From: an uncultured Methanobrevibacter sp.
Lineage (GTDB): Archaea > Methanobacteriota > Methanobacteria > Methanobacteriales > Methanobacteriaceae
DNA: 64,000 bases
Direction: 5' to 3'
Assembly: GCA_900318035.1 (NCBI GenBank)
Contig: ONJC01000011.1
Coordinates: forward strand, 54,022-118,021
The stretch's first letter is position 1; each line of letters begins with the position of its first letter. Under the pieces are notes generated by a model, which ran no database searches, had not been told where the DNA came from, and was given only the letters and a program-made list of their open reading frames with translations. The position numbers and the translations under genes are program-made. Positions 22,945 to 36,776 of the stretch are shown here, piece after piece.

Positions 22945-23029
22945 TTTAGTCATACCTAAATTTTAGTAAAGTTTATATACTATGATGACCAACTTTAATA
23001 CAAGTGACATAAATTTAGGCACACCTAAA
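22945..23029 (+). promoter_or_regulatory. Box-TATA-box promoter with iron-repressor-like operators
   Basis: Box 1 at 22945-22960 (TTTAGTCATACCTAAA), TATA box TTTATATAC at 22972-22980 preceded by a purine-rich BRE, and box 2 at 23014-23029 (TTTAGGCACACCTAAA, a TTTAGG-N4-CCTAAA palindrome). Orientation is inferred from the identical arrangement in front of feoA. Boxes of this type suit a DtxR-family repressor; box 2 would lie just after the start site. Confidence 0.6.
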
Positions 23030-23204
23030 TTTTCACTTTAACAAAACATATTATTAGTCAATAATAATACAATCTCCAAAAATATATTTGATATTGAATT
23101 AGTTTCCACAATTTTCTAATTTAATATCAGGAAATTATCTGCCGAAATTTCCAAAAAGGATGTTTATGGTTTCTGATTGTAAACATCAAATACATACTCT
23201 CTTT
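22945..23204 (+). repeat. Left arm of a ~250-bp inverted repeat
   Basis: By eye the reverse complement of 34240-34510 aligns along this stretch. Exact or near-exact blocks include 22991-23021 (31 bases) and 23040-23082 (about 40 bases), and both copies end with a TGTTTA/TAAACA hairpin and an ACTCTCT motif. Conservation outside any reading frame suggests a duplicated regulatory or RNA unit. Confidence 0.75.
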
Positions 23205-23205
23205 A
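23002..23205 (+). ncRNA. Candidate iron-responsive small RNA, copy 1
   Basis: Predicted transcript from about 27 bases after the TATA box to the hairpin GATGTTTA (23159-23166)/TAAACATC (23180-23187) and the following CTCTCTTTA. The second copy at 34237-34449 shares the sequence but not any reading frame; short ATG frames in one copy are absent in the other. A conserved ACAATCTCCAAAA segment (about 23069-23082) could pair with Shine-Dalgarno-type GGAG sequences. All of this is inference from promoter architecture and conservation; boundaries are approximate. Confidence 0.45.
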
Positions 23206-23306
23206 AAAATAGTGATTGGAGTTTTCACTATTTTTAATTTCAATATGTCGTTTTAAACTCCATATTATTTTTCCTCGAAAGGTGCTTAAGGGGTTTTTTA
23301 AGCACC
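23205..23306 (+). terminator. Two stem-loops after candidate RNA copy 1
   Basis: Perfect 11-bp stem AAAAATAGTGA (23205-23215)/TCACTATTTTT (23225-23235) and 9-bp stem GGTGCTTAA (23281-23289)/TTAAGCACC (23298-23306). The first is followed by a T-run, the second by CATCCTATATTTTTT. They could end read-through before the next promoter. Confidence 0.5.
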
Positions 23307-23324
23307 ATCCTATATTTTTTATAT

Positions 23325-23409
23325 TTTAGGTAAACCTAAAAATTCAAAACATTTAAATATGTCTTGATACAAAATCAAGTATGGCAATGAAAAATTAGGT
23401 CTGCCTAAA
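23325..23409 (+). promoter_or_regulatory. Box-TATA-box promoter of the 37-residue peptide gene
   Basis: Box 1 TTTAGGTAAACCTAAA (23325-23340), TATA ATTTAAATAT (23351-23360), box 2 TTAGGTCTGCCTAAA (23395-23409). Spacing from TATA to box 2 is about 43 bases, the same design as the feoA and feoB promoters, so iron-type repression is inferred. Confidence 0.6.
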
Positions 23410-23468
23410 TATCTAATTTTGATTGCTATTGTATGTTGATATTAAATCACACTACAATTCTCCGATTA

Positions 23469-23555
23469 TTACTAAATTAGTTTAAAACTCTTTTAATTTA
23501 GTAATGGCATATGACTACTCTCATGAAATTAAATATGAAATCCATATTTAATTTC
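23469..23555 (+). promoter_or_regulatory. Leader with two perfect hairpins before the 37-residue peptide
   Basis: Stem 1: TTACTAAATTA (23469-23479) with TAATTTAGTAA (23494-23504), 11 bp. Stem 2: GAAATTAAATATG (23525-23537) with CATATTTAATTTC (23543-23555), 13 bp, 5-base loop. Stem 2 ends 8 bases before the GGGTG ribosome-binding site, so it may modulate translation. No known riboswitch class was recognised. Confidence 0.45.
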
Positions 23556-23575
23556 ACCTATTATGGGTGTTTTAA

Positions 23576-23689
23576 ATGGCAAACAAGACAAATAAATCAA
23601 AATGTTGCGAAGTAAAAGATGATTCAAAGGAGAAAAAAAGCATCTTTAAAAAATTATGGTGTTTCTTTTTTGGATGCAACTGTCACTAA
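23576..23689 (+). CDS. 37-residue Cys-rich small protein, probably iron-regulated
   Basis: The ATG at 23576 follows a GGGTG ribosome-binding site at 6-7 bases spacing, and the frame ends TAA at 23689. The peptide is highly basic in the middle and has five cysteines (C10, C11, C29, C34, C36) and a terminal His37. C-terminal residues 23-33 (IFKKLWCFFFG) are aromatic and could associate with the membrane. A CC pair and a GCNCH end suit metal or cluster binding. It sits behind a box-TATA-box promoter of the feo type and a leader with two perfect hairpins, and before a long T-rich tract. I do not recognise a family. That it is translated is inferred from ribosome site, Cys pattern and regulation. 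Confidence 0.5.
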   Translation: MANKTNKSKCCEVKDDSKEKKSIFKKLWCFFFGCNCH

Positions 23690-23808
23690 TTTAATATTTT
23701 TTAATTTTTCTCAATTTTTTTCAATTTTTATCTATTTTTGACAAATATTTAAGTATGTTAAGTTAGATATTAAATATTACTTTAAATAACTTTAAATAGG
23801 TAGGAATT

Positions 23809-24528
23809 ATGGACAGAACAAAAAAAATAATTATTGCTATCATAATAGTTGTTCTTGTTGTTCTTGTAGCAATTATTGCAAGTGCACTTTTCCTAGGTCA
23901 AAATTCAGAACTCAAGAGCGGTAACAAAAATATTTTGGTATGTGCTATTGATGAAAGTGAAAGCCGGCCGGGAATGGGTGCCTGTGATATGGCATTTATT
24001 GTAACTTTGAATAACGGCACTCTTAAGAATTATACTCCTGTTTATCCTGGAGGTTTGACACACCCAACGGCTAAAGAGCCCGCTGAAGCTCAAGCCCAAG
24101 GTGCAGGATCTAGGTTGCTGCTTCACGATGCATTTTGGGACTCAGATAATGCTCTTGACATGAGGCTTGCAAAGGAAATTGTGGAGCATAATACAAATTA
24201 TCAAATAGACTCCGTTGTTGCAATAAATACTAAAGCTTTAGATGCTGTGCTTGATGCCGCAGGAACAATAGAAGTTAATGGAAACAAAACTCATGTGAGT
24301 GGTATTGACATTATCCGTGAAGAAGACTGGGGTCAAGGTGTATCAAGAGGAACTGCAGTATTGGATGTTGTTAAAGCTGCTGCAAGAGCAGCAAAAGATC
24401 CTAATGTGAAAAAAGGTATGATAAATGCAGCTCTTGATCAATATGCAAAAGGCAACATTATCATGGATAAACAAGGCGATTTTGTAGGATTATTAGCATC
24501 AAAAGGAATTGAAACCTTCTTCGGTTAA
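23809..24528 (+). CDS. DUF4012-like membrane-anchored protein
   Basis: The 239-residue protein has an N-terminal transmembrane anchor (about 6-30) and an extracytoplasmic domain. Blocks such as ESRPGMGACDMAF, YTPVYPGGLTHP and LLHDAFWDSD, then IDSVVAINTKALDAVLDAAG, fit DUF4012, a distant relative of the LytR-CpsA-Psr fold that acts on cell-envelope polymers in bacteria. In this pseudomurein-walled lineage a role in wall or surface polymer handling is a guess. A GGTAGGA ribosome-binding site precedes the ATG. It is convergent with the TadC gene, 19 bases apart. Confidence 0.6.
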   Translation: MDRTKKIIIAIIIVVLVVLVAIIASALFLGQNSELKSGNKNILVCAIDESESRPGMGACDMAFIVTLNNGTLKNYTPVYPGGLTHPTAKEPAEAQAQGAGSRLLLHDAFWDSDNALDMRLAKEIVEHNTNYQIDSVVAINTKALDAVLDAAGTIEVNGNKTHVSGIDIIREEDWGQGVSRGTAVLDVVKAAARAAKDPNVKKGMINAALDQYAKGNIIMDKQGDFVGLLASKGIETFFG

Positions 24529-24547
24529 TTCCTTTCTTTTTATTATT

Positions 24548-25423
24548 TTAGATTTTTGGTTCTAATCTCTTAATGAACACTCCCATAAACATCACTATCA
24601 TCGGGAAAAACACTGAATAGATTAACATTAACATGTTTGATGATATGATATCTCCCATAACTGTTGAACCTGCCATCAGCATTATCAGACTGATTACCGG
24701 AGCCAAAATAGCTATAAAAGTATAAATCAGTATGAATGAATTTAATTTTTGGGAATATTCCTTTAACTTGATTTGCATCTCAAATGAAATGTCTTTTGCA
24801 ATTATATCTAGGCTGTAAGCCAGATTTCCCCCAACCCTTAGAGTACCCACAATCTGCTGAATTGCTCTTGTAAGGCCTTCTGATTTGTTTCTTTCAGACA
24901 TTTCAAGAAGGGAATCTTCGGTTGATTTTCCATATTTCACCTCTTCCAAAACCCGATTGATCTCTTTTGAAAATGATCCATAATCGGAATTTCTTATTGT
25001 CCGTAGTGTGTCATGAAGGCCCTTTCCTGATTTTAACTCGATTCCCATATGTCTTAAGGCATACGGCAGTTCTCGATTTAAATCAGAATAGTTTTTCTGT
25101 TCTTTAATTTTAGGATAGTATATTAAAAACACATAAACCATTCCAACCATGACCAGATACATTGCACAGATTTCCAGGGGCATAATAAAAAATAACAGTA
25201 GGGATATGAGAATTATGGTTGTTATTGTTGATTTTTTAACCATTGCCGGAATCAGACGTTCCCTCAGCTCATCTATCTTGTCCCTTTCATTTGCAGGTAT
25301 CCTTTTTTCGAAATCCAGTCTTGAAAATAGTGATGATGTCTTTGACTCTTTTTTGGGATTGTTATCTTTTCTGGTAATGTTTTTGAAAAATGAAACTGAA
25401 GATAATGCGATTGTGCCAATCAT
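24548..25423 (-). CDS. Type II/IV secretion system F-type membrane protein (TadC-like)
   Basis: The 291-residue protein has helices at about 1-12, 65-100 (two) and 225-285 (two) around a cytoplasmic helical T2SSF domain (about 110-220) with GIELKSGKGLHDTL and GTLRVGGNLAYSLDII. Such proteins form the membrane platform of archaeal pili or secretion systems and work with a TadA-type ATPase, encoded just upstream (25 bases apart). It is shorter than ArlJ/FlaJ, which has two such domains, so it is closer to a TadC half. No pilin or prepilin peptidase gene is adjacent. Confidence 0.82.
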   Translation of the reverse strand: MIGTIALSSVSFFKNITRKDNNPKKESKTSSLFSRLDFEKRIPANERDKIDELRERLIPAMVKKSTITTIILISLLLFFIMPLEICAMYLVMVGMVYVFLIYYPKIKEQKNYSDLNRELPYALRHMGIELKSGKGLHDTLRTIRNSDYGSFSKEINRVLEEVKYGKSTEDSLLEMSERNKSEGLTRAIQQIVGTLRVGGNLAYSLDIIAKDISFEMQIKLKEYSQKLNSFILIYTFIAILAPVISLIMLMAGSTVMGDIISSNMLMLIYSVFFPMIVMFMGVFIKRLEPKI

Positions 25424-25448
25424 TATGAAAAACTTGTTTAAAATGATA

Positions 25449-26876
25449 TCACCCGTTTAATAGTATTCTGTTTAAGACTTTTTCGCTGTCATTGTAGTAC
25501 AAATCAAAAACGCTTTTTACATCATCACTGGAGTGGATTTCATGTTCAACCATATGGCTTAAAACGATTTCTCTGTTTTCAATTTCTCTGTGGATTTCGC
25601 TGACTGATTTTCCGGTCAGGTTTGCAAGTTGCGTGAGTGTCATGCTTGATATGCTTACATTTTCGATGGTATCGGTTTCCGGGTTCCACTGGAAGATTTT
25701 GTTTAGCTGTACCACTCCTTCTTCAATTCCTACAACTTCGGCAACTTCACTGATTCTTCTGTAGGATACTCCTGAAGATGTGTAAATCCTGTTTTGCATT
25801 ATAATAAAGTCGATTGCCTGAATCATTATTTCAGGAACGGACATTGGTGCATTGGTCAATCTTGTAATTGTTTCTCTGGCGTCATTTGAATGTAATGTCC
25901 CAAATCCGGAATGTCCAGTATTCAATGCGGTAAATAGTGTGATCGCCTCATCTGATCGGACCTCTCCAACAATGATTCTGTCGGGGCGTTGCCTTAATGA
26001 ATTTTTAACCAAATCGTTCATGGTTAATTCGCCTTTGTTTTCCACATTTGCAGGTCTTGTTTCCATTCTGATGACATGTTCATGAGGAATCTGCAGCTCC
26101 AATGTGTCTTCAATTGTTATTATTCTTTCCTTGGGGTTGATAAAGGAGCAAAGGGCATTTAATGTTGTTGTTTTTCCTGAACTTGTTCCTCCAGAGATAA
26201 TTGCATTGGCGGATTTGACTCCAAGGCCGTCAAAACAAACCCACAGGAATGCTGCAAGTTCAATTGAAATTGTTTTTGAATTGATTAAATCAATGATGGT
26301 AAAAGGATCTTTCTTAAATTTTCTAATGGTTAATGAGGGGCCGTCCGGGGATACTGGGGGGATTGTGGCATTTATTCTTGACCCGTCAGTTAATCTGCCG
26401 TCTAAAATTGGGGATTCCTGGTCTATCCTTCTGTTAATCTGTCTTGCAATTGAATCTATTAGATCTATTAGCTCCTTTTCATCATCAAATTCAATATTTG
26501 TTTTCATCATTCCGTATTTTCTGTGGTAAACGAATACGGGTTTGCTTATTCCATTTATCATAATTTCTTCCAGGTCATCATCCTGAATCAATGAATCTAT
26601 TTCTCCGTAGCCGATTATGTCTCTTAGAAGCTTATGGGACAGGTCATCCAAATATTGCTTTGAAACTTGAAGATTTTGATTTTCATCTGAAAGTCTCATG
26701 AATAGGAAGTTTCGTATGTCGCCTAACAGCTTCTCTTCATTGGGCTGGAAATTTTCGCCTGTTGATATGGCAAGGTCAACCAAGTTTCCACGAATTTCGC
26801 TTAATAGAATTTTTTCCTCAGGGCTGTAATTTTGTCTGGACACGTTATATTGTGGTATAATCTCATTATTGCTCAT
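25449..26876 (-). CDS. Type II/IV secretion ATPase, TadA/CpaF family
   Basis: The 475-residue ATPase has Walker [11 protein letters not shown] (about 228-237), the Asp box [11 protein letters not shown], Walker [14 protein letters not shown] and the His box [12 protein letters not shown]. The N-terminal about 110 residues are the family's adaptor domain. It would power assembly of a pilus or secretion fibre with the TadC-like protein downstream. I chose the ATG at 26876 because AAGGTGA lies 6 bases upstream; a GTG 9 bases earlier is less likely. The gene order ATPase then platform is the minimal archaeal Tad-like unit. Confidence 0.9.
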
Positions 26877-27010
26877 ATTTTTCACCTTAAGCGATTTTTA
26901 ACACATTTTAAAATTAGTATTACTAATTAATAAAGTTTTTATTACTTTCGAAAGCATAATTACTTATATAAATCAAAATCATATTATCAAATCAATTGTG
27001 AGGTTATTGC

Positions 27011-27907
27011 ATGCTGGATATTGAGGATAGAATTGATTCATTAAACGAATGTGAAAACTGCAGGGATGTTCAAATAAAAAAATTTTCCCCTTTAAAAGAC
27101 CTGATTAACTTCGATGATTATGACGGCGATTATATGAGGTGTCAATGTGGAAAAAGACCTCTGGATATTGTAATGAGCCACATCCTGAAAATCATGATTG
27201 AAACAGGGATTGTAGGCGAAAAAGCAACACTCAGGCGCAACTCTCCAGTACCATTATCCGATTTTTACTTCAGCAGTTTGAACCCGCAATTCATTCAAAA
27301 AAACACACTGATATTGCTTCATCCGGATTTCACTCCTGAAGTGGCTACCAAACTGGTTGATGAGGTTCCTGAAGTAAAATGCGTTTTAAAAGGAAGTCCT
27401 CAAAATGTTGTCGGACAGCTGAATAGGGATTCTGACATTGGTCACTTTGAAATTCTCGAAGGTGACGACACCCAGATTAATGTTATGAGGACATTGCTTG
27501 ATGAAAAAATAATTTTAGTTAAAAACCAGTCAAGACACCATATTGAAGTTGCAATGACCACTGAAGAGAAATTGCTCAGGCTGCACAATTATCTAGATAA
27601 TAACGGTATTAAGAAAGGCACAGCCATTGACGGGATGTGCGGTTTGGGAGCACTTGGAATCTATATGCTGAAATACGGTTTTGAAAAGGTAATATTCAAT
27701 GACATTAACCCCGAGATGATTGATGCGCTGAAAAATAATCTGGAAATCAATGGAATCTGCGACGGATTTGAAATACATAATCAGGCATTTGAAGATTTAA
27801 GCGTCGAACATGCAGATTTATGTGTCATTGATGCATTTCCGGGTCAGGACATTTCTGATATTCAGGAAAAAGCAGAAAAAATAGCAGATAATGTTGTGAT
27901 TATCTAG
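27011..27907 (+). CDS. SAM-dependent methyltransferase with N-terminal Cys cluster
   Basis: The 298-residue protein has a class I methyltransferase core in its last about 115 residues: motif I AIDGMCGLGALG, acidic strand-2 IFNDINPEM, and ADLCVIDAFPGQD at motif IV. The N-terminus carries CENC and CQCGKR pairs that could bind zinc. The order resembles archaeal Trm5/Met-10-like tRNA enzymes, but the NPPY motif is replaced by DAFPG, so the substrate is unclear. A GTGAGGT ribosome-binding site precedes the ATG. It is convergent with the STAS-like gene with no gap. Confidence 0.7.
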   Translation: MLDIEDRIDSLNECENCRDVQIKKFSPLKDLINFDDYDGDYMRCQCGKRPLDIVMSHILKIMIETGIVGEKATLRRNSPVPLSDFYFSSLNPQFIQKNTLILLHPDFTPEVATKLVDEVPEVKCVLKGSPQNVVGQLNRDSDIGHFEILEGDDTQINVMRTLLDEKIILVKNQSRHHIEVAMTTEEKLLRLHNYLDNNGIKKGTAIDGMCGLGALGIYMLKYGFEKVIFNDINPEMIDALKNNLEINGICDGFEIHNQAFEDLSVEHADLCVIDAFPGQDISDIQEKAEKIADNVVII

Positions 27908-28174
27908 CTACTTTCTATTATTTAATTTTAGAATCATGTCAAACATTTTTTCAACATCTTCCGGAACATTTTCTTCAATTACTTCAAAAGATGCGAAATG
28001 TTTTTGATTTAAATATTCTTGAGCAAAACTACGTCCCATGAATTCAATATTTTTAAAATCCATGATTACTTTGGTAACATTGGGACTTATATTGGTAAAT
28101 ATTTCTTCAATTTTTGACCTTTGACCTAAATCTCTCCCAATTTCATCTTCAAGAATAATTTTCAATTCACTCAT
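27908..28174 (-). CDS. STAS-like domain protein (DUF4325 type)
   Basis: At 88 residues this is one STAS-like domain. The block VIMDFKNIEFMGRSFAQEYL matches DUF4325, in which a strand, then a Ser/Thr-containing turn and helix, correspond to the phosphoacceptor region of SpoIIAA-type antagonists. Serine in GRSFA is the candidate phosphosite. It is encoded 14 bases after a GHKL-ATPase gene, and in bacteria DUF4325 is typically linked to such kinases. An AAGGTAG ribosome-binding site lies before the ATG. I infer a partner-switch component; the downstream target in an archaeon is unknown. Confidence 0.7.
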   Translation of the reverse strand: MSELKIILEDEIGRDLGQRSKIEEIFTNISPNVTKVIMDFKNIEFMGRSFAQEYLNQKHFASFEVIEENVPEDVEKMFDMILKLNNRK

Positions 28175-28188
28175 ATTATCTACCTTAA

Positions 28189-28809
28189 TTATAATCTGTA
28201 TTCAATTTGATTTAAATAGTTATACATATCTATTTTTGTTGTCAAATCAACTCGCAAATGGACAATGGTGCCTGTACTTAATTTTTTTGGATTTTTTTGC
28301 GAAATAACTTTTTCAGAGTTGATATATAATATAACATCGCCGGATATTAATAGGAATTCTCCATCAAAACCATTAACAACAATATTGACTGTATTATTCA
28401 GGCCAGTTCCTCTTTCAATATATCCTAAATCGTTTTTTGTTGATAATCCGTTCACTGCTTTAATGAGGGCATCGCTGTCATTTTCAATTTCATATCCTGC
28501 ATTTTTGAAAGAATTTTTAATGCTGATTCCATTATCTGCTACTCTGAAATCATACTGGGCATTCATTAATCTTCCAGAAATGCAACCTTCACTAAATTTA
28601 GAGTGATCATAGATATTTCCGGTTAATTCATAAAAGATGAACTTCATAGTATTTTGATTTTGTTTTGGAATATTTAATTCGTTGATAAGTTCGTTTGTAA
28701 CTTCAAATGAATTATCTTCATTTACATTTAATTTTTTCACGTGATATTTGTTTTCATTTGTAATCCTTGGATTTTCTTTGAACTCTTCTAATAATATTTT
28801 TTCTTTCAT
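28189..28809 (-). CDS. GHKL-type ATPase/anti-sigma-like protein kinase
   Basis: The 206-residue protein has a C-terminal HATPase domain: N-box YELTGNIYDHS (E-x3-N-x3-H as in SpoIIAB/RsbW), G1 VADNGIS and G2 RGTGLNN. There is no His-phosphotransfer domain, so it is not a classical sensor kinase but resembles serine kinases that phosphorylate STAS proteins. The start at 28809 follows AGGTGA by 6 bases. It lies between a TctA permease gene, 9 bases upstream, and the STAS-like gene, so three genes may share one mRNA. The SpoIIE phosphatases at 13.5-17.3 kb are the natural opposing enzymes. Confidence 0.72.
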   Translation of the reverse strand: MKEKILLEEFKENPRITNENKYHVKKLNVNEDNSFEVTNELINELNIPKQNQNTMKFIFYELTGNIYDHSKFSEGCISGRLMNAQYDFRVADNGISIKNSFKNAGYEIENDSDALIKAVNGLSTKNDLGYIERGTGLNNTVNIVVNGFDGEFLLISGDVILYINSEKVISQKNPKKLSTGTIVHLRVDLTTKIDMYNYLNQIEYRL

Positions 28810-28818
28810 ATTTTTCAC

Positions 28819-30072
28819 CTAAATAAACATCTGCAAATAAATGACAATAGCAGGAATAATCAGAACGCCCATCAGATGGGATTTGCCCACTCCGATGTAG
28901 TGCGGAAGCATTCCCAGTGCAGTAGAAGTAATCAAAGCCAATGTCATATATCCGAGCGGCGCTTCATAATAAAAAATAAAAATGTAGAGGATCAGAATCT
29001 GAAGTAAGATAACTCCAATTGATAATTTCTTATAATTGACACCGCTCATAAGTCTAGAAAAAGAATCGCCGAGTTTTAAGGATAATGCCAATGAAACGGA
29101 AACGGCAATCAGAGATGCAAAAATAAAAATTGCCAGATGGTTCAGGTTCATCTCGCTAATCAGATAGGACATATAGACAGCTATTCCGCTTCGGGGGTTT
29201 CCGATAATATAAATTGCAATAAGTGAAAATAAACAGTCAGAAACATTAAGTCCGGATGTTGCCAGAAGAAAATTGACAGTATCGTCATCGTCATTGTCAT
29301 TGGCTCCACTTGCAGCCTGTGCAATGACGGTTCCCTGTGCAGGTCCGAATCCCGGTAGAAATCCAAGAATTGCTCCTGTGATTCCGCCTGCAAAAATGCT
29401 TTTGAATTTGTTGAAATCCAAATCAAGCTCATAAAATTTGTTTTGGTGAGGTATTGTTGATGAATCGTTCAGGCTGAATAAAATGGTGCTTATTCCAAAA
29501 AGGCCGGAAAATGTGCACATTAACGATACTCCTGAGGAAATTGGGGTTTGAAAAATTATCCATCCCAATATTCCCGAAAGTACGAATAAGAGCAGGGACC
29601 ATATGAAGTCTCTTCGGGTATTGGTCAATTTGTAGGTTAGATAAATTGATGCAAAAAGGAGTATTGCCCATGTAAACGGCTTTGAAATGTCATGTAGGAT
29701 GGGCAAGGCCATTGCAAAAATCGGAAGCATCAGTATTGTAACTATAATTGCTCCAAATCCTCCTATTGATACAATTCTTATCACTTCTTTTGATCTTCCC
29801 TGCAGAACCATCCTATGTCCCGGAAGTATTGAAGTTGCCGTTCCTTCCTGAGGCACTCCCAAAAGCATTGACGGTACAAATTCGATTAACGCATGAGCTA
29901 TTGACATTGCAACCATCACGACACACAGGAATTCGGGCGATATGAATGTCAGTAAAAATGTTGAAGATGCAAACAGGATTGCTCCTGCCGTATTGACATG
30001 TATTCCAGGTATCATTCCAGTTATTGTTCCAATTGATATTCCTATAAAACAGGCAATAATTAATTCTATCAT
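28819..30072 (-). CDS. TctA-like tripartite tricarboxylate transporter permease
   Basis: The 417-residue polytopic protein (about eleven helices) has the TctA signature: GMIPGIHVNTAGA near the start and again GFLPGFGPAQGTVIAQ in the second half, plus SMLLGVPQEGTATSILPGHRM. In bacteria TctA works with TctB and a periplasmic binding protein to import citrate-like acids. Neither partner is encoded nearby, as is usual for the archaeal members, so substrate and mechanism are unknown. It is followed by the HATPase gene after 9 bases and is likely co-transcribed with it. Confidence 0.82.
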   Translation of the reverse strand: MIELIIACFIGISIGTITGMIPGIHVNTAGAILFASSTFLLTFISPEFLCVVMVAMSIAHALIEFVPSMLLGVPQEGTATSILPGHRMVLQGRSKEVIRIVSIGGFGAIIVTILMLPIFAMALPILHDISKPFTWAILLFASIYLTYKLTNTRRDFIWSLLLFVLSGILGWIIFQTPISSGVSLMCTFSGLFGISTILFSLNDSSTIPHQNKFYELDLDFNKFKSIFAGGITGAILGFLPGFGPAQGTVIAQAASGANDNDDDDTVNFLLATSGLNVSDCLFSLIAIYIIGNPRSGIAVYMSYLISEMNLNHLAIFIFASLIAVSVSLALSLKLGDSFSRLMSGVNYKKLSIGVILLQILILYIFIFYYEAPLGYMTLALITSTALGMLPHYIGVGKSHLMGVLIIPAIVIYLQMFI

Positions 30073-30251
30073 ACCTATTAATTATTTTAACTTTAATTTA
30101 TACTTTGTTGAAGCTATTAATCTATATTTACTCTATTTTATAAAATTGAAGTTATTTGGTATGATTGTTTTAATTTATAAGAATTGTCGTGGCTTTGTAA
30201 AATTGTTTTCATTCAAAAAGTATTTGTGTGTATTCGGATAATATATTATTA

Positions 30252-30959
30252 ATGTCAAGACCGAGAAATATTCTATTGCTTTTAATCATAGTGGCTATTT
30301 TAATTTTAATCAGAATAACCGTGATGGGTTCTATAGCAAGCCTTATATTTCCTCCATCACACGCAAGTCATTCAGATACCTTGTTTGAGGATATTGGAGG
30401 TGATAATTTCCTTAACGCCACCTTGAAAGGATGCTTAAAAATAAGAGAAGAAAACATTTCTGATGCTTCTTTTAAAACATCCAGCGGCATATGGAAATGG
30501 TATAATGCTAAAAACATTACTTATGTGACGGAATATGGTACGAAGAACTATATGATTGTATGGAAAGCGCCGGCCGATAAATATGATTTTAAAAATGAGG
30601 GTGTTAATCTATATTTTTCGAATTTTTTGACTGACCGTGCTGCAAAATGCTTTGTCGAATATTCCTATGAAAACAATTGCGTTTATGGAATAATTGTCGA
30701 CACTTCTAATGTCAAGTATAGTGAATCCGAATTGATGTATGATATTTTAGGTCTTAACCGTACGGGATTTGATCTGACCTACAGCAATTCCGGAACAGGT
30801 CACAGCGGAGGTTACTCTGGTGGTGGAAGTTCTTATCATACGGTTGTGCCTGACAGGTACACGCTTTCAAGAACAGACCCCGGAGCATATTATGACCATT
30901 ATGAATACGGTGACAATTATGACATTGACAATTATCTGGAATCGGAAGGTTTCGACTAG
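30252..30959 (+). CDS. Membrane-anchored secreted protein with Gly/Tyr/Asp-rich tail
   Basis: From the ATG at 30252 the product has 235 residues. It has an N-terminal hydrophobic anchor (about 7-32), a soluble domain with GIWKWYNAKNITYV and TDRAAKCFVEYSYE, and a flexible Gly/Ser stretch GGYSGGGSS. It ends in an acidic tail with repeated Tyr and Asp (YYDHYEYGDNYD). I do not recognise the domain family. The stop overlaps the end of the convergent marR gene by 4 bases. The similar tail on the secreted protein at 31507 suggests a shared surface or metal-binding role, an inference. Confidence 0.6.
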   Translation: MSRPRNILLLLIIVAILILIRITVMGSIASLIFPPSHASHSDTLFEDIGGDNFLNATLKGCLKIREENISDASFKTSSGIWKWYNAKNITYVTEYGTKNYMIVWKAPADKYDFKNEGVNLYFSNFLTDRAAKCFVEYSYENNCVYGIIVDTSNVKYSESELMYDILGLNRTGFDLTYSNSGTGHSGGYSGGGSSYHTVVPDRYTLSRTDPGAYYDHYEYGDNYDIDNYLESEGFD

Positions 30960-31417
30960 AATTGGTTTCTGTTGAATTCCAGAGACTTTAGGGATATTTT
31001 AGTTAGCAGTTTAAGCAAATCTTCACGGGAGATATCCAATTCTTCACAGATCATATCGTCCCACTCTTTTTCTTTTTCGATTAGAAATTCGGATGTTTCA
31101 ATTCCTTTTTTGGTTAAAGTGATTTTATATGCTCTTTTGTTGTCTTCATCAACTTCCCTGATAATCAATCCCTTTTCTTCGAAATCCTTGAATGCCCTAG
31201 AAACTCCGCTTCGGTCCATCAGGCAGGCTTTTGCAATATCTGATTGGTTTGTACCCATTTCATAATATAAAAATAGCAGCATGTAATATTGGCTGGGAAG
31301 TATCTCCGTTTCGCTTTTGATGTGTTTGTTCATGTAGAAGTCATGAGTTTTTATCAATGAAATCAAATGGTTTACCAAAAATGGGGAATCTTTAATAATA
31401 TCGTCATATTCTATCAT
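30956..31417 (-). CDS. MarR family transcriptional regulator
   Basis: The 153-residue protein is a winged-helix MarR repressor: helices 1-2 at about 1-45, recognition region QSDIAKACLMDRSGVSRAFKDFEEKGLI (about 58-85), the wing with REVDEDNKRAYKITLTKKG and a C-terminal dimerisation helix. An AAGGTGAT ribosome-binding site precedes the ATG. It lies between two secreted-protein genes and is divergent from the one at 31507, with AT-rich DNA containing the half-repeat TTTAAAT near 31438-31460. It probably controls itself and that neighbour; ligand unknown. Confidence 0.88.
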   Translation of the reverse strand: MIEYDDIIKDSPFLVNHLISLIKTHDFYMNKHIKSETEILPSQYYMLLFLYYEMGTNQSDIAKACLMDRSGVSRAFKDFEEKGLIIREVDEDNKRAYKITLTKKGIETSEFLIEKEKEWDDMICEELDISREDLLKLLTKISLKSLEFNRNQF

Positions 31418-31506
31418 AATAAAATCACCTTAAATATAAATATTTAAATTAAGATTTAAATAGTATTTGTAACATATTATTCACAACAAACTATTGGAGT
31501 CCAATC

Positions 31507-32007
31507 ATGAACAAAAAAATCATCATCATTTTTGCAGTTGCCTGCGTTGGTTTGCTGTTGCTTACAAGCCCGGCATTTGCAAAGGAAAACGTTAATGTAG
31601 AAATATCCACTGACAAATGGTTCAATGGCAAAGGCGTTATTTTAATCAAGCTTGTTGATGACCGTGGCAGAGAAATCCATTCCAATGGAAAAATCAATTA
31701 TACAATTACTGACTCTAACGGCCATTATGAATGGAAATCTAAATCTTATGGCAGTTTTCTCCGCATAAAATATGATGCGGGATGGTATAACGTTCAGGTA
31801 AAATTCGATGGGGATAAGAAGTACAGTTCTGCTTTTTCATCTCAGGATGTTAATGTGCCGACATCCAGACCTAGTTTTGATGCTTACAATTATTATGACA
31901 ATCATAATTGGGGTTTGAATCAGAAAATGGACGATTATATCGAGTATAATTATTGGGATGAGGAAATTTACGACGACGCTTCAAACTATGACGGCGAAGG
32001 ATATTAA
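31507..32007 (+). CDS. Secreted protein with one Ig-like domain and acidic Tyr-rich tail
   Basis: The 166-residue protein has a signal peptide (about 1-25, cleavage near AFA-KE) and one Ig-like beta-sandwich domain of the archaeal adhesin type (about 28-118). That domain has the VKFDGDKKYSSA ending typical of such repeats. A C-terminal tail is rich in Tyr, Asn and Asp. The short size and single domain make it a small secreted factor rather than a full adhesin. It is divergent from marR with 89 bases between, so regulation by that repressor is plausible. The acidic tail resembles that of the protein ending at 30959. Confidence 0.7.
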   Translation: MNKKIIIIFAVACVGLLLLTSPAFAKENVNVEISTDKWFNGKGVILIKLVDDRGREIHSNGKINYTITDSNGHYEWKSKSYGSFLRIKYDAGWYNVQVKFDGDKKYSSAFSSQDVNVPTSRPSFDAYNYYDNHNWGLNQKMDDYIEYNYWDEEIYDDASNYDGEGY

Positions 32008-32290
32008 TCAGTTTTAAAATCTAAAAACTATTTCAAGATATCTCTTAAATTGGAGGATATGTCCATATCATCATGACAATTTTAGACAGAGCCATATCCA
32101 TTCTTTAAAATTGATTTTACTTTGTCTTAAACTGTAAATTAAAAAATAATTAATTTTAAATACTTTAAAATTCAAAATATTAAGTATTTAATCTCGATAT
32201 AATTGTCATTCCAGTTGTTTGGAAAATGATTTATATATTTGAATACATAATTATTAATCAAGATTATTTTCTTCTAAAGAGGTTATGTAA

Positions 32291-32584
32291 ATGGAATGGA
32301 GCACACTTCAATCTAAAGCTTATGGATTAGACATTAATGATTTTGTAAGTGAAGAATTTCTTGATAAACTTAGAGAGGAGTTTGAAGATAAGGATGTTGA
32401 TGTTGTTACACTACAAATTGCGGTAAGAGATAAAGTTAAAGATCCTAAAAATGATGATGCTAAAGTGGACATCATTTCATTATCCAATAGCAGTATTGAA
32501 GATACACTACTGCATAAAACCATTGTGGATGTTACCTCTGATGAAAACTTTGAAAAAATAAAAAAAGTAATCGATGAATTTTAA
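32291..32584 (+). CDS. Hypothetical acidic protein
   Basis: A 97-residue soluble, acidic protein with no signal peptide or transmembrane segment. It alternates helices (FVSEEFLDKLREEFEDKDVD) and strands (VVTLQIAVRDK, VDIISLSN). I do not recognise a family. A GAGGT ribosome-binding site precedes the ATG. It is followed within 26 bases by the 171-residue helical protein, and then by the PIN gene, so the three may be one unit and this could be a regulator or antitoxin-like component, as a guess from position. Confidence 0.55.
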   Translation: MEWSTLQSKAYGLDINDFVSEEFLDKLREEFEDKDVDVVTLQIAVRDKVKDPKNDDAKVDIISLSNSSIEDTLLHKTIVDVTSDENFEKIKKVIDEF

Positions 32585-32610
32585 ATTAACTAAAAGGAGG
32601 GTCATGTTTC

Positions 32611-33126
32611 ATGTTTTCTAATAAAAACGTTTATATTATAAATAATGATTATGTTTCTAAATCTATGAATATTTATGATTCATTTATTAATGCCATTAAA
32701 GAATTGAAAGAAAAGATTTATTCAAATGTTGAAAATATCATTGTTCAAAACAATGGACCTTCTTTAGATGAGTTAATTGAAAATATAAAGTATTCATTTA
32801 ACAATGCAGAAAATATCTTATCCAATCTTGATTTTTTTGAAGATGAATACTATGATTTCTCTTCCATTAAAGATATGGCATTTTATATTTTAGATAATAA
32901 ATCATTATTACATCATATTTCAATAGTTAAAGGTTTATTAAACTCTTTTTACAATCTTGTTCAATTCAAAAAAGATTCTTCCAGTGAAGAATATAAACAA
33001 AAATATGATGAATTCTCTTCTGAGTTAATTGATGTTGAACAATCCTTTTACACTGAAATATACGAACCTAATGAAAAATACAATGAAGAAGCATTGTCTG
33101 AAATATCCAATTCATTATTAGGATAA
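32611..33126 (+). CDS. Hypothetical helical protein upstream of PIN gene
   Basis: The 171-residue protein is predicted mostly alpha-helical with long charged helices (about 20-60, 70-120, 125-165) and no membrane segment or known motif. A GGAGG site lies 10 bases before the ATG at 32611; an ATG at 32604 is out of frame and stops after five codons. It lies 16 bases before the frameshifted PIN-domain gene with its own GGAGG, which suggests a toxin-antitoxin-like pairing. It is much longer than usual VapB antitoxins and shows no ribbon-helix-helix or AbrB motif, so the pairing is only positional. Confidence 0.55.
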   Translation: MFSNKNVYIINNDYVSKSMNIYDSFINAIKELKEKIYSNVENIIVQNNGPSLDELIENIKYSFNNAENILSNLDFFEDEYYDFSSIKDMAFYILDNKSLLHHISIVKGLLNSFYNLVQFKKDSSSEEYKQKYDEFSSELIDVEQSFYTEIYEPNEKYNEEALSEISNSLLG

Positions 33127-33142
33127 AAAAGGAGGATTTCTT

Positions 33143-33803
33143 ATGAATTCTTTTGTAGACACTAATGTTTCTATTGCATATATTTTTTTCCATTGATCCT
33201 CTAAACAATAAATCAATGGCGGTTTTTAGAGGATATGATAATATTTATTGGTCAGAACTTGTCAAAAACGAATGTAAAAACGTATTTAAAAATAAAAGGA
33301 AAATCTTAGTTAAGTTCTATAAAGATTTGGCCAATGATTTAAAACCTGATGATTTTCATAATTTCAGATTCAATGATTTAAGAAAACATGTTATGGGAAA
33401 ATATTCCGATGGCAAAAAACGTGACCAAATATTAAGCTCTTTAAAAAAATTCTGGGATACTTATGTCAACGAAAGATTCCCCACATACAATTCTTTTAAT
33501 CAGGCTATTCAAGATTGCTTGGATGATTTGAAATATTTAGTCTATTCTAGAAAAAATCAATGGGAAACCAATACTTCATTGACAAATAAAAGAGTTGATA
33601 AATACCTTTATCTAAAAAAGAAATTGGCATCTTTAAATGTTCATCATCCTGATGACGATATTGCTCTTGATGCCCATGACTTTTATTTGAGAAATGATTT
33701 TCTTTTAGATTTCATCACATTCGATGAAGATTGTCGTGTTGGAGTATCTAAAATCAAAGAGTTTCAATTTAACAAAGTAAAAGGTAAATATGACTATCTA
33801 TAA
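33143..33803 (+). pseudogene. PIN-domain nuclease gene with a one-base frameshift
   Basis: From the ATG at 33143, with a GGAGG site 8-12 bases upstream, the frame opens MNSFVDTNVSIAYIF, the classic PIN start with its first acidic residue, then hits TGA after FFH. A second frame continues from SIDPLNNKS through about 195 residues and ends with DDDIALDAHDFYL and FITFDEDC, which supply the remaining PIN acidic residues. Dropping one T from the seven-T run at 33183-33189 joins the two. It is therefore either an inactivated gene, a phase-variable one, or an assembly error. Intact it would be a VapC-like RNase of about 219 residues. Confidence 0.7.
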
Positions 33804-33907
33804 AATTGTTAGTTTTATTGATTGCCGTGCTGAAAATTTCCAATTGTTTTAGTGAATTTTAAAAATTCAATAAATTATTTTTTTACAATTTAATTAAATT
33901 ATACTCT

Positions 33908-34039
33908 ATCATCAACCTTAATCATCAACCAACATACTTTTTTTATTTTTAATTAAAATGGCTTAAATCATAAAAGAAGTAATTTAAAGAATTTTAAAAA
34001 ATTAATCATCAACCAAAAATTATCTTAATCATCAACCAA
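33908..34039 (+). repeat. Dispersed ATCATCAACC direct repeats
   Basis: The 10-mer ATCATCAACC occurs four times (33908, 33921, 34005, 34028), and the 15-mer TTAATCATCAACCAA three times (33918-33932, 34002-34016, 34025-34039). Spacing is irregular and there are no unique spacers of constant size, so it is not a CRISPR array. It may be a binding-site cluster downstream of the PIN gene. Confidence 0.6.
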
Positions 34040-34091
34040 TGAATATCTTAATCGGATAATGTAAGTTTTAACTTTATATCTGATGGTCATT

Positions 34092-34185
34092 AAGTAGCTA
34101 TAGTTAAATATGATTTTTTGATGAGTCAGATTTCTGCTGATTTCTAATTAGCTACTTTTTGAAAACTCCCATTATTTGGAGTTTT
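34092..34185. other. Two stem-loops left of the feo region
   Basis: Stem AAGTAGCTA (34092-34100)/TAGCTACTT (34149-34157) with a 48-base loop, followed by TTT; and stem AAAACTCC (34162-34169)/GGAGTTTT (34178-34185). They could be terminators for either direction or part of a structured RNA. No known RNA family was recognised. Confidence 0.45.
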
Positions 34186-34236
34186 TGCTATTAAATATTT
34201 AAAATAAGAAAAGATTTTTGCTTTTGATGATATCTT

Positions 34237-34449
34237 AAAAAAATAGAGAGTTGGTGTTTATTGGTTGAGGAGAGTTATAAACACCAGACTTGTTTTTTTG
34301 GGAATTATGTGGCAGATTTTCCCAATACCAAATTAGAAAATTGTGAAAAGCTAATTTGATATTTAATTTTGGAGATTGTATTATTATTGACTAATAATAT
34401 GTTTTGTTACAAGTGCATATTTTTAGGCATGCCTAAATTTATGTCACTT
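34237..34449 (-). ncRNA. Candidate iron-responsive small RNA, copy 2
   Basis: Leftward counterpart of the unit at 23.0 kb. Its promoter (34422-34507) reads away from feoB, and the unit ends in the stem TGGTGTTTAT (34252-34261)/ATAAACACCA (34277-34286), followed on the minus strand by ACTCTCTA and seven T, an intrinsic terminator. The conserved ACAATCTCCAAAA segment is present (34367-34379). No reading frame is shared with copy 1. Boundaries are estimated from the TATA box and the T-run; existence of the transcript is inferred. Confidence 0.48.
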
Positions 34450-34510
34450 GTATTAAAGTTGGTTGTCATAGTATATAAATCTTTCTAAATTTTTAGGTGT
34501 ACCTAAATTT
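34240..34510 (-). repeat. Right arm of the ~250-bp inverted repeat
   Basis: Reverse-complement copy of 22945-23204. The hairpin near the far end has changed on both sides while keeping pairing (GATGTTTA/TAAACATC versus GGTGTTTAT/ATAAACACC), which points to selection on RNA structure. Confidence 0.75.
34422..34507 (-). promoter_or_regulatory. Leftward box-TATA-box promoter
   Basis: Box 1 TTTAGGTGTACCTAAA (34492-34507), TATA TTTATATAC on the minus strand (34471-34479), box 2 TTTAGGCATGCCTAAA (34422-34437). Same geometry as at 22945-23029 and at feoA. Box 1 is close enough to the feoB promoter that one repressor array could cover both directions. Confidence 0.6.
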
Positions 34511-34586: not shown

Positions 34587-34651
34587 TTAGGTTTGCCTAA
34601 ATATTTAAATATCATAAAATTCAGAATATTAGTAAGTTTAGGTTAACCTAA
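34587..34651 (+). promoter_or_regulatory. feoB promoter with two operator boxes
   Basis: Box TTAGGTTTGCCTAA (34587-34600), TATA ATATTTAAATAT (34601-34612), box TTTAGGTTAACCTAA (34637-34651). TATA to box 2 is 36 bases. The leader that follows (to 34757) has a GACAGAT/ATCTGTC hairpin near 34700-34722. Confidence 0.65.
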
Positions 34652-34757: not shown

Positions 34758-36776
34758 ATGACAGAATTAATTGTAGGATTAGCAGGAAACCCTAATGTGG
34801 GTAAAACTACTGTATTCAATCAATTAACTGGTATGCGTCAACATGTAGGAAATTGGCCTGGAAAAACTGTTGAAAGGGCAGAAGGTCATTTCAAACATGG
34901 TGGGTATGATTATGATGTTGTCGACTTGCCAGGTAACTATGCATTAAGTGCTCATTCTATGGAAGAAATTGTTTCAAGGGATTTCATTGTAGATGATGAC
35001 TCTGATGTAATTATTAATGTAGTGGATGCTGCTAATTTAGAACGTAATTTATATTTAACAGTTCAAATGATGGAATTGGGTGCGAATCTGGTAATGGCAC
35101 TTAACATGAATGATTTTGCAAAGAAAAAAGATCACATCATTGACATTAAGTTGATGAGTGAACTTTTAGGTTTCCCTGTTGTTGAAATTAATGCAAAAAC
35201 TAAAGATGGTTTCGATGATTTATTAAAAACTGTAGAAAAGGCATCTTCAAATCCTGTGGACTCAAGTGAAAAATTATCATATGGTAATGATATTAAAGGC
35301 CATTTGATGGATTTGCAAAAATTAATTGAGCAGGATAAAAGTTTGTTGGATGTTCCTTCAGTTTGGACTGCGATAAAGTTATTGGAAAAAGACGCTATTG
35401 TTATAGATAAAGTGAAAGGATCTTCTAAAGGCTCTCAGATAATGGCTGAATCAGATAGGGTAAGTGCACATCTTTGGGATGTATACAAAGAAGGTCCGGA
35501 AGAAGTTATTGCAAATGCAAGATATGCATTTATTGATGGTTTAATGACTGAAGCCGTTAAAAGGCCGGCTGTTGAAAAAGAAACCACAACAGATAGAATT
35601 GATAAGATTGTTACAAACAGACTTTTGGCTCCGTTTATATTTCTTATTATAATGTGGGTCATGTTCCAGTTGACATTTACTGTAGGTGCTCCTTTCCAGG
35701 ATATGATTGATGAGGCATTCGGAGCGTTAGGAGAAATGGTTGCAGGATATATTGCAAATGAATATTTAGCTTCATTCATCTGTGACGGTATCATCGGTGG
35801 AGTAGGTGGAGTTCTCACTTTCCTTCCGATTATTATTCTGATGTTCTTATTCTTAAGCATATTGGAGGATTGCGGTTACCTTGCAAGAGCAGCATTTACC
35901 TTGGATAAACTTATGCACAAAATCGTTGGTCTTCATGGAAAAGCATTCATTCCTATGATTTTAGGATTCGGTTGTGGTGTGCCTGCAATCATGGCAACCA
36001 GAACAATGGAAAATGAAGGGGACCGTATGCTTGCTATGATGCTTGTTCCGTTCATGTCCTGTACTGCCAGATTACCGATTTATGCTATTTTCATTGCAGC
36101 ATTTTTCACAAAAGACCAAGGTCTTGTATTGCTTTCAATTTATGTGTTAGGTATTGTTGTGGCACTCATCGTTGCAGCAATCCTTAAAAGGACCATGTTT
36201 AAAGGCCTGTCAACTCCATTTGTAATGGAGCTTCCGACCTATAAGGTACCCTCCATAAAAGGTGTACTGTTACACACATGGGAAAAAGTAAAAGGATTCT
36301 TAAGAAAAGCAGGTACTATTATTCTTGCATGTTCCATTGTATTATGGGCTTTAAGCATATTCCCATTAGGTGTGGAATATGGATCTGCTCAAAGTGTATT
36401 GGGTATGATTGGTACTGCTATTGCTCCAATATTCGCTCCATTAGGATTTGGAACTTGGCAGGCTGCTGTAGCTATCATTGCAGGATTGGCTGCTAAAGAA
36501 GTAGTAGTTGCAACATTCGGTACTCTTGCAGGTATGGAAGAGGATGATGAAGAAGGAATCACTAGTTTGGTCCATGACACATTCACCCCATTGTCTGCAT
36601 ACGCATTCATGGCATTTACATTGCTCTACACTCCATGTTTCGCAGCTATTGGTGCAATCAAACAGGAAACCAACAGTTACAAATGGGCATTAACTATGTG
36701 TGGTATCACATTAGTGACTGCATATATAGTGTCCTTCTTGATTTACAATGTTGGTATGCTTGCAGGATTCGGATAA
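34758..36776 (+). CDS. feoB: Ferrous iron transporter FeoB
   Basis: The 672-residue membrane protein imports Fe(II). The N-terminal G domain has G1 GNPNVGKT (10-17), the switch segment [12 protein letters not shown]3 [10 protein letters not shown] and G4 ALNMND, followed by a helical insertion. The membrane part (about 290-670) has two Gate-type halves with [20 protein letters not shown] and [12 protein letters not shown] start at the ATG at 34758, preceded by GGGAGA at 7 bases; an in-frame ATG at 34668 would add 30 residues unlike FeoB. Expression is probably controlled by the double-box promoter upstream. feoA follows with a separate promoter. Confidence 0.96.

Follow-up and report, generated by a model that had tools for sequence, protein, structure and literature searches.

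RyhB of enterobacteria and PrrF1/PrrF2 of Pseudomonas are iron-controlled small RNAs (sRNAs) associated with Fur control and Hfq, and PrrF occurs in two copies. Two inverted units, copies A and B, in a 64-kb stretch from an uncultured Methanobrevibacter sp. (contig ONJC01000011.1, positions 54,022 to 118,021; hereafter the window, 64,000 nucleotides in full) probably encode archaeal RNAs of this functional kind. The preferred reading, given a probability of about 0.7, is that A and B are trans-acting iron-sparing sRNAs under a DtxR-family repressor and that they mask ribosome-binding sites, foremost that of fdhA, which encodes formate dehydrogenase alpha, an iron-sulfur enzyme. A and B resemble PrrF in being twin copies, and RyhB and PrrF in their predicted iron control. 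They differ in that Fur and Hfq serve the bacterial RNAs, whereas neither archaeal copy has an Rfam match at gathering score, the RyhB family included. The initial annotation had called the units RyhB analogues, a description that holds for the proposed mode of action and fails for descent.

IsrR, a Fur-repressed iron-sparing sRNA of Staphylococcus, binds fdhA mRNA in gel shifts, according to excerpts of the report (PMC9410917). The same excerpts describe iron-repressor control, exposed C-rich stretches, Shine-Dalgarno masking and an fdhA target, all of which are predicted for A and B. IsrR is a different, bacterial RNA, controlled by Fur rather than through the DtxR-type box found here, and its targets have been tested whereas the archaeal ones are predicted. 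In Bacillus subtilis, a C-rich motif of FsrA binds Shine-Dalgarno sequences with the aid of the small proteins FbpA, FbpB and FbpC (PMC9410917, excerpts). In the archaeon, too, small open reading frames (ORFs) lie behind the same type of box promoter; they have no known function, and no sequence relation to the FsrA system is claimed. Among methanogens, sRNA162 of Methanosarcina mazei masks a ribosome-binding site with an unpaired linker; it is another RNA from another lineage, and the excerpted passages mention no iron control (PMC3510493). Most likely, A and B would work like FsrA, IsrR and RyhB, a predicted membership in a functional class and not in the RyhB family. Among the matches listed in the excerpted open-licence PMC text there is no archaeal iron-responsive sRNA of this kind, which is not proof of absence from print.

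The two copies comprise the following features.

22945-23238, plus strand: copy A, whole unit including promoter
22945-22960, plus strand: copy A box 1 (TTTAGTCATACCTAAA), read from the sequence, its place relative to the TATA box conserved
22972-22979, plus strand: copy A TATA box (TTTATATA), read from the sequence and by promoter comparison
23014-23029, plus strand: copy A box 2, also the core of the predicted 5' hairpin of the RNA
23003-23238, plus strand: copy A predicted sRNA, probable start about 31 bases past the TATA box
23203, or 23238 if the second terminator hairpin is included, plus strand: probable end of the copy A RNA
23069-23081, plus strand: copy A seed (ACAATCTCCAAAA), predicted to be exposed from alignment and fold
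34237-34507, minus strand: copy B, whole unit including promoter, inverted relative to copy A
34492-34507, minus strand: copy B box 1 (TTTAGGTACACCTAAA), read from the sequence, by exact-box scan and by promoter comparison
34472-34479, minus strand: copy B TATA box, read from the sequence and by promoter comparison
34422-34437, minus strand: copy B box 2, located in the same three ways as box 1
34237-34448, minus strand: copy B predicted sRNA, start probable, end at the seven-T run
34367-34379, minus strand: copy B seed (ACAATCTCCAAAA), predicted to be exposed from alignment and fold

Re-alignment confirms what the initial annotation had described: two inverted copies that match across some 250 bases, in part as long identical blocks, a box-TATA-box promoter in each (with one departure from the box pattern, in box 1 of copy A), a stem that has changed on both sides and still pairs exactly (GATGTTTA/TAAACATC in A, GGTGTTTAT/ATAAACACC in B), and a seven-T end in one copy, namely B (34243-34237). 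These observations are real and extend well beyond the locus. When copy A (23005-23245) is the query in a DNA search of the source genome (2.29 Mb in 56 contigs, 88% complete), copy B is recovered at E 2.0e-34; the match spans positions 1-153 of the 241-base query and is 82% identical. In each copy, about 200 bases past the promoter fold into a row of hairpins without an open frame, and the folds are more stable than those of shuffled sequences (z -7.05 for A and -5.26 for B; 0 of 200 shuffles as good for either).

A DNA search finds relatives across the genus. A covariance search, suggested earlier as a check and run with the stricter filters that apply at such database size, locates the RNA in 62 of the genus's 67 genomes and in none of 83 genomes from the order's remaining genera; the model scores 115.1 bits at 23049-23190 in copy A and 123.4 bits at 34250-34399 in copy B. 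At least two matches occur in 49 of the 62 matching genomes, inverted as here or in tandem. Four of the five genus genomes lacking a match are at most 83% complete, and the remaining one, G109, at 95% completeness, does have a box pair.

The stems covary. In an alignment made from sequence alone (32 sequences), pairing holds in 90.5% of cells, and both partners have changed in 16 of 36 pairs. On four of five measures none of 500 shuffles reaches these values; on the remaining one, 3 do. Moving the partner by 1-3 columns lowers pairing to 38-47%, a control in which the 36-pair structure is favoured, having been drawn from the same alignment. A model-fitted alignment of 55 sequences, which leans toward its own model, gives 21 of 36 pairs changed on both sides and 93.6% of cells pairing. 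The 32 rows were retained from 42 extracted, after removal of two overlapping rows of L023, one repeated row of L010, five type II rows, and L029:1713 and L028:2376 as aberrant. Of 51 members, 46 have at least four consecutive Ts no more than 12 bases from where the model ends. In copy A the last conserved hairpin is trailed by just TTT, and a further hairpin carrying T5 comes next (about 23203-23237). As had been noted for the two copies, no reading frame is shared: a stop interrupts every RNA-strand frame in all 51 members tested. The CTCC of the seed is invariant (32 of 32 aligned), and ATCTCC is predicted to be largely unpaired, with a mean probability of 0.92 against 0.50 for the whole RNA in the predicted folds of 53 members. 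Judged from sequence, A and B are a conserved structured RNA without an open frame.

Promoter geometry is conserved along with the RNA. The boxes are palindromes of the TTTAGGnnnnCCTAAA type, and in both copies the TATA box sits between two of them at fixed spacing. A TATA box is recognisable in 51 of 55 members; in 49 of these 51 the start of box 1 precedes it by 27-29 bases, and in 48 the start of box 2 follows it by 41-45. Both boxes are in place in 46 of 51, compared with 1 of 600 shuffled controls. Box 2 falls just inside the predicted transcript, where it would form the core of the 5' hairpin. It has been lost in three copies, of which two, L025 and L026, retain the pairing of AGUGAUGUG with CACAUUGCU in the predicted fold, and L028 has no 5' hairpin predicted in the piece folded (this folding covered 28 of 55 members). 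The genome holds 17 exact boxes, versus 3 for the reversed pattern, and 7 of the 17 lie in the window. The box type is common to the sRNA promoters and feoB, the ferrous iron transporter gene, and another box precedes cbiM, a cobalt transporter gene. One DtxR-family gene (domain PF02742) was found in the genome, itself preceded by a box-like site. Covariation, promoter geometry and this single repressor gene together bear out the earlier proposal of a structured non-coding RNA behind an iron-type box promoter.

These features suggest how the system may operate. When iron is plentiful, the DtxR-family repressor would sit on the boxes flanking the TATA box. When iron is scarce, it would lose its iron and leave the boxes, allowing the sRNAs to be transcribed. 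The resulting RNA of about 200 nucleotides, its ends at the probable positions given above, would present AATCTCCAAAA and other C/U-rich loops from its row of hairpins, and these loops may pair with GGAG ribosome-binding sites to block translation of iron-using proteins.

The initial annotation had proposed that the seed AATCTCCAAAA pairs with GGAG ribosome-binding sites. This is supported as a prediction, and fdhA now provides a concrete target. One site complementary to the seed is the fdhA ribosome-binding site TTTTGGAGATTATAAAATGG, located behind a formate transporter gene. A protein search for FdhA finds a match in 54 of 67 genus genomes, and TTTGGAGATT is present at fdhA in 30 of 30 loci read. 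The predicted duplex between seed and fdhA has an energy of -16.2 kcal/mol for A and -14.3 kcal/mol for B, ranking second for both among 139 start regions, which come from a set of loci partly picked for seed matches; shuffled seeds reach this energy in 0.2% (A) and 0.4% (B) of cases. These predictions make fdhA the best-supported target of the A and B RNAs.

Several observations weigh against the proposed control and target. A genome scan for the seed complement, allowing up to one mismatch, yields 36 sites, two of which are the RNA genes themselves, versus 20 for the reversed pattern. Seed matches alone are therefore weak evidence, and the scan was rejected as proof of targets. The top duplex among the 139 starts belongs to another ORF. 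Some genomes that carry the RNA, such as G031, have no fdhA match at 1e-60. Conservation of the fdhA site may serve fdhA translation itself or a separate, perfectly matching anti-fdhA RNA, and it was rejected as proof by itself, as other genera share the core of the site. In a sister genus (that of genome G079), all 12 readable loci carry GGAGATTATA at fdhA. It is also found at fdhA in G063, a 74% complete genome of another genus in which no box pair was found, so that site and RNA are not perfectly matched. Other ribosome-binding sites precede fdhA in G062, of the same genus as G063, and in genera g20 (2 readable loci), g21 (1) and g22 (3); four loci in this survey outside the genus were unreadable, and more distant paralogues were not counted. 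As to the repressor, the DtxR-family protein resembles both iron (IdeR, DtxR) and manganese (MntR) repressors and passes no NCBIfam cut-off, so the assignment to iron depends mainly on feoB.

A separate candidate sRNA without iron boxes, L260, lies behind a diphthine synthase-like gene (G000:C32:24931-25111, minus strand). It has a TATA promoter followed by 24 bases that are a perfect antisense match to the ribosome-binding site and start of fdhA, and then a GGAAGTAG/CTACTTCC hairpin accompanied by runs of C and T. A second copy of this type is present at G000:C32:24659-24826, and L261-L279 are relatives. A DNA match to L260 occurs in 66 of 67 genus genomes, in some of them merely over the stretch shared with fdhA. 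A second fdhA-like site, L133, was considered as a sponge mimicking fdhA; this idea was withdrawn because a promoter lies on the opposite strand, together with an exact antisense of fdhA and an end that resembles a terminator.

Box pairs reach beyond the genus. Of 109 genomes sampled, 69, belonging to 8 of 17 genera, have two exact boxes separated by 40-68 bases, an arrangement never seen in the reversed control; by group, it is present in 36 of 38 genomes from the window's genus, in all 19 from the sister genus and in 14 of 52 others. The sister genus has tandem box-controlled units whose RNA is dissimilar to A and B. CAATCTCCAA lies within 420 nucleotides behind 9 of its 19 long units (shuffled expectation 0.0), but behind none of its 7 short units and none of the 4 g20 units, a count that drew on 26 of 30 box-pair loci. 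Eight of the nine units were aligned; all have a small hairpin directly before the seed, preceded by AACCATTTT in six and by a variant in two. An exact two-part fdhA antisense is present in 11 of 19 sister-genus genomes and absent from the reversed control. For ten of the 11 patterns, a same-strand box pair precedes at a distance of 189-225 bases; that of G094 has no box pair in front among those listed. The two parts are predicted to cover the fdhA ribosome-binding site and start codon.

A broader scenario, for which the balance is about even, is that the family Methanobacteriaceae has its own iron-sparing RNA system. A DtxR-family repressor would clamp twin sRNA promoters between two operators, the downstream one doubling as a 5' hairpin, and the RNAs would shut down formate dehydrogenase and other iron enzymes. 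The RNA body would have been replaced between sister genera while the anti-fdhA seed was kept, and Staphylococcus IsrR would have reached the same target independently. If true, archaea that produce methane in rumen and gut have an RNA-based iron-sparing response, control of a kind already known from bacteria, and their use of formate is tied to iron. The locus would supply material for tests: two genes that can be deleted, the pattern of a binding site, and a target.

In genus g20, box-TATA-box units (L201-L204) precede yet another RNA, with a TTGAATCAAAAGT...ACTTTTGATTCA hairpin and no CAATCTCCAA; three of these four units also contain TCTGCCAAA or TCTGCCGAA. In two sister-genus genomes (L216, L217), a box-TATA-box arrangement stands directly before a FeoB-like gene with no RNA unit between.

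The surroundings of A and B bear on other explanations. Unit C, a diverged relative termed type II, follows copy A, and feoB is divergent from copy B.

23325-23575, plus strand: unit C, box-TATA-box plan followed by a structured leader
23325-23340, plus strand: unit C box 1
23352-23359, plus strand: unit C TATA-like sequence (TTTAAATA)
23394-23409, plus strand: unit C box 2
23576-23689, plus strand: 37-codon Cys-rich ORF behind unit C, ending WCFFFGCNCH
34587-34600 and 34638-34651, plus strand: two further boxes upstream of feoB, from the exact-box scan
34758-36776, plus strand: feoB, divergent from copy B, with a probable start codon
36927-37154, plus strand: feoA, after feoB

The units might not be free sRNAs at all but structured 5' leaders that act as attenuators or riboswitch-like elements for the genes downstream. 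In the 12 Methanobrevibacter stretches with DUF4012 nearby, this gene is always downstream on the same strand as the unit (copy-A type), and read-through is possible, a further point against free sRNAs; a small ORF also follows 7 of 10 boxed units of the unit C type read. Copy B has no such partner: the first gene on its strand, a MarR-like ORF, ends 2.8 kb away, with one 67-codon ORF between that overlaps a plus-strand ORF. Moreover, feoB is divergent from the unit in all 11 Methanobrevibacter stretches where it was found, T runs follow the last hairpin in most members, and copy A gives way to its second, T5-bearing hairpin and, after that, the promoter of unit C itself. Leaders are thus unlikely for A and B. 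Free-standing sRNAs are a less clear description of unit C, which runs into a small ORF, and of copy-A-type units upstream of same-strand DUF4012. The initial annotation's interpretation as archaeal iron-sparing sRNAs is partly supported.

The clustering of boxes in the window would also suit DNA-level elements that titrate the repressor or control neighbours, the transcribed part being functionless. Compensatory stem changes, invariant loop letters and the 5' hairpin that still pairs in L025 and L026 after loss of box 2 (none is predicted for L028) make this improbable. Multiple copies per genome, here inverted and elsewhere in tandem, could point to a mobile or repeated element. Feature by feature, however, structure and promoter spacing are conserved, and feoB or DUF4012 lies beside the unit in 23 of 28 Methanobrevibacter stretches (neither was found in the DNA examined for the other five), unlike variable insertion sites; an element resembling a miniature inverted-repeat transposable element is very improbable and was rejected. 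A small protein encoded by A and B, an idea prompted by the recurrence in relatives of the small ORF behind unit C, is just as hard to credit. The interrupted RNA-strand frames led to its rejection (very short ORFs would be possible), and changes fall in paired positions while loops vary in length.

The exact core of the unit was found in 31 named stretches, 28 of them from Methanobrevibacter; the other three (L095, L101 and L103) lack boxes and were set aside as chance. Unit C matches copy B weakly in direct comparison (E 0.54), so its kinship rests on the promoter plan and on relatives. A permissive Rfam scan of copy A and unit C gave one sub-threshold match, to the microRNA MIR1886 in unit C (25.2 bits, where the cut-off is 62; E 0.019), which was put down to chance on a hairpin. 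Several direct repeats of AATCATCAACCAA lie just downstream of copy B, at 33920-34047. ORFs resembling the 37-codon one occur in 6 of 28 Methanobrevibacter stretches. In the sister genus (L208, L212, L219, L221, L222 and L223), a box-TATA-box arrangement precedes a GRTKSGICGKKQIKPTKRERKRDPKVVSFRR-like basic ORF roughly 33 codons long, possibly the counterpart of the 37-codon ORF.

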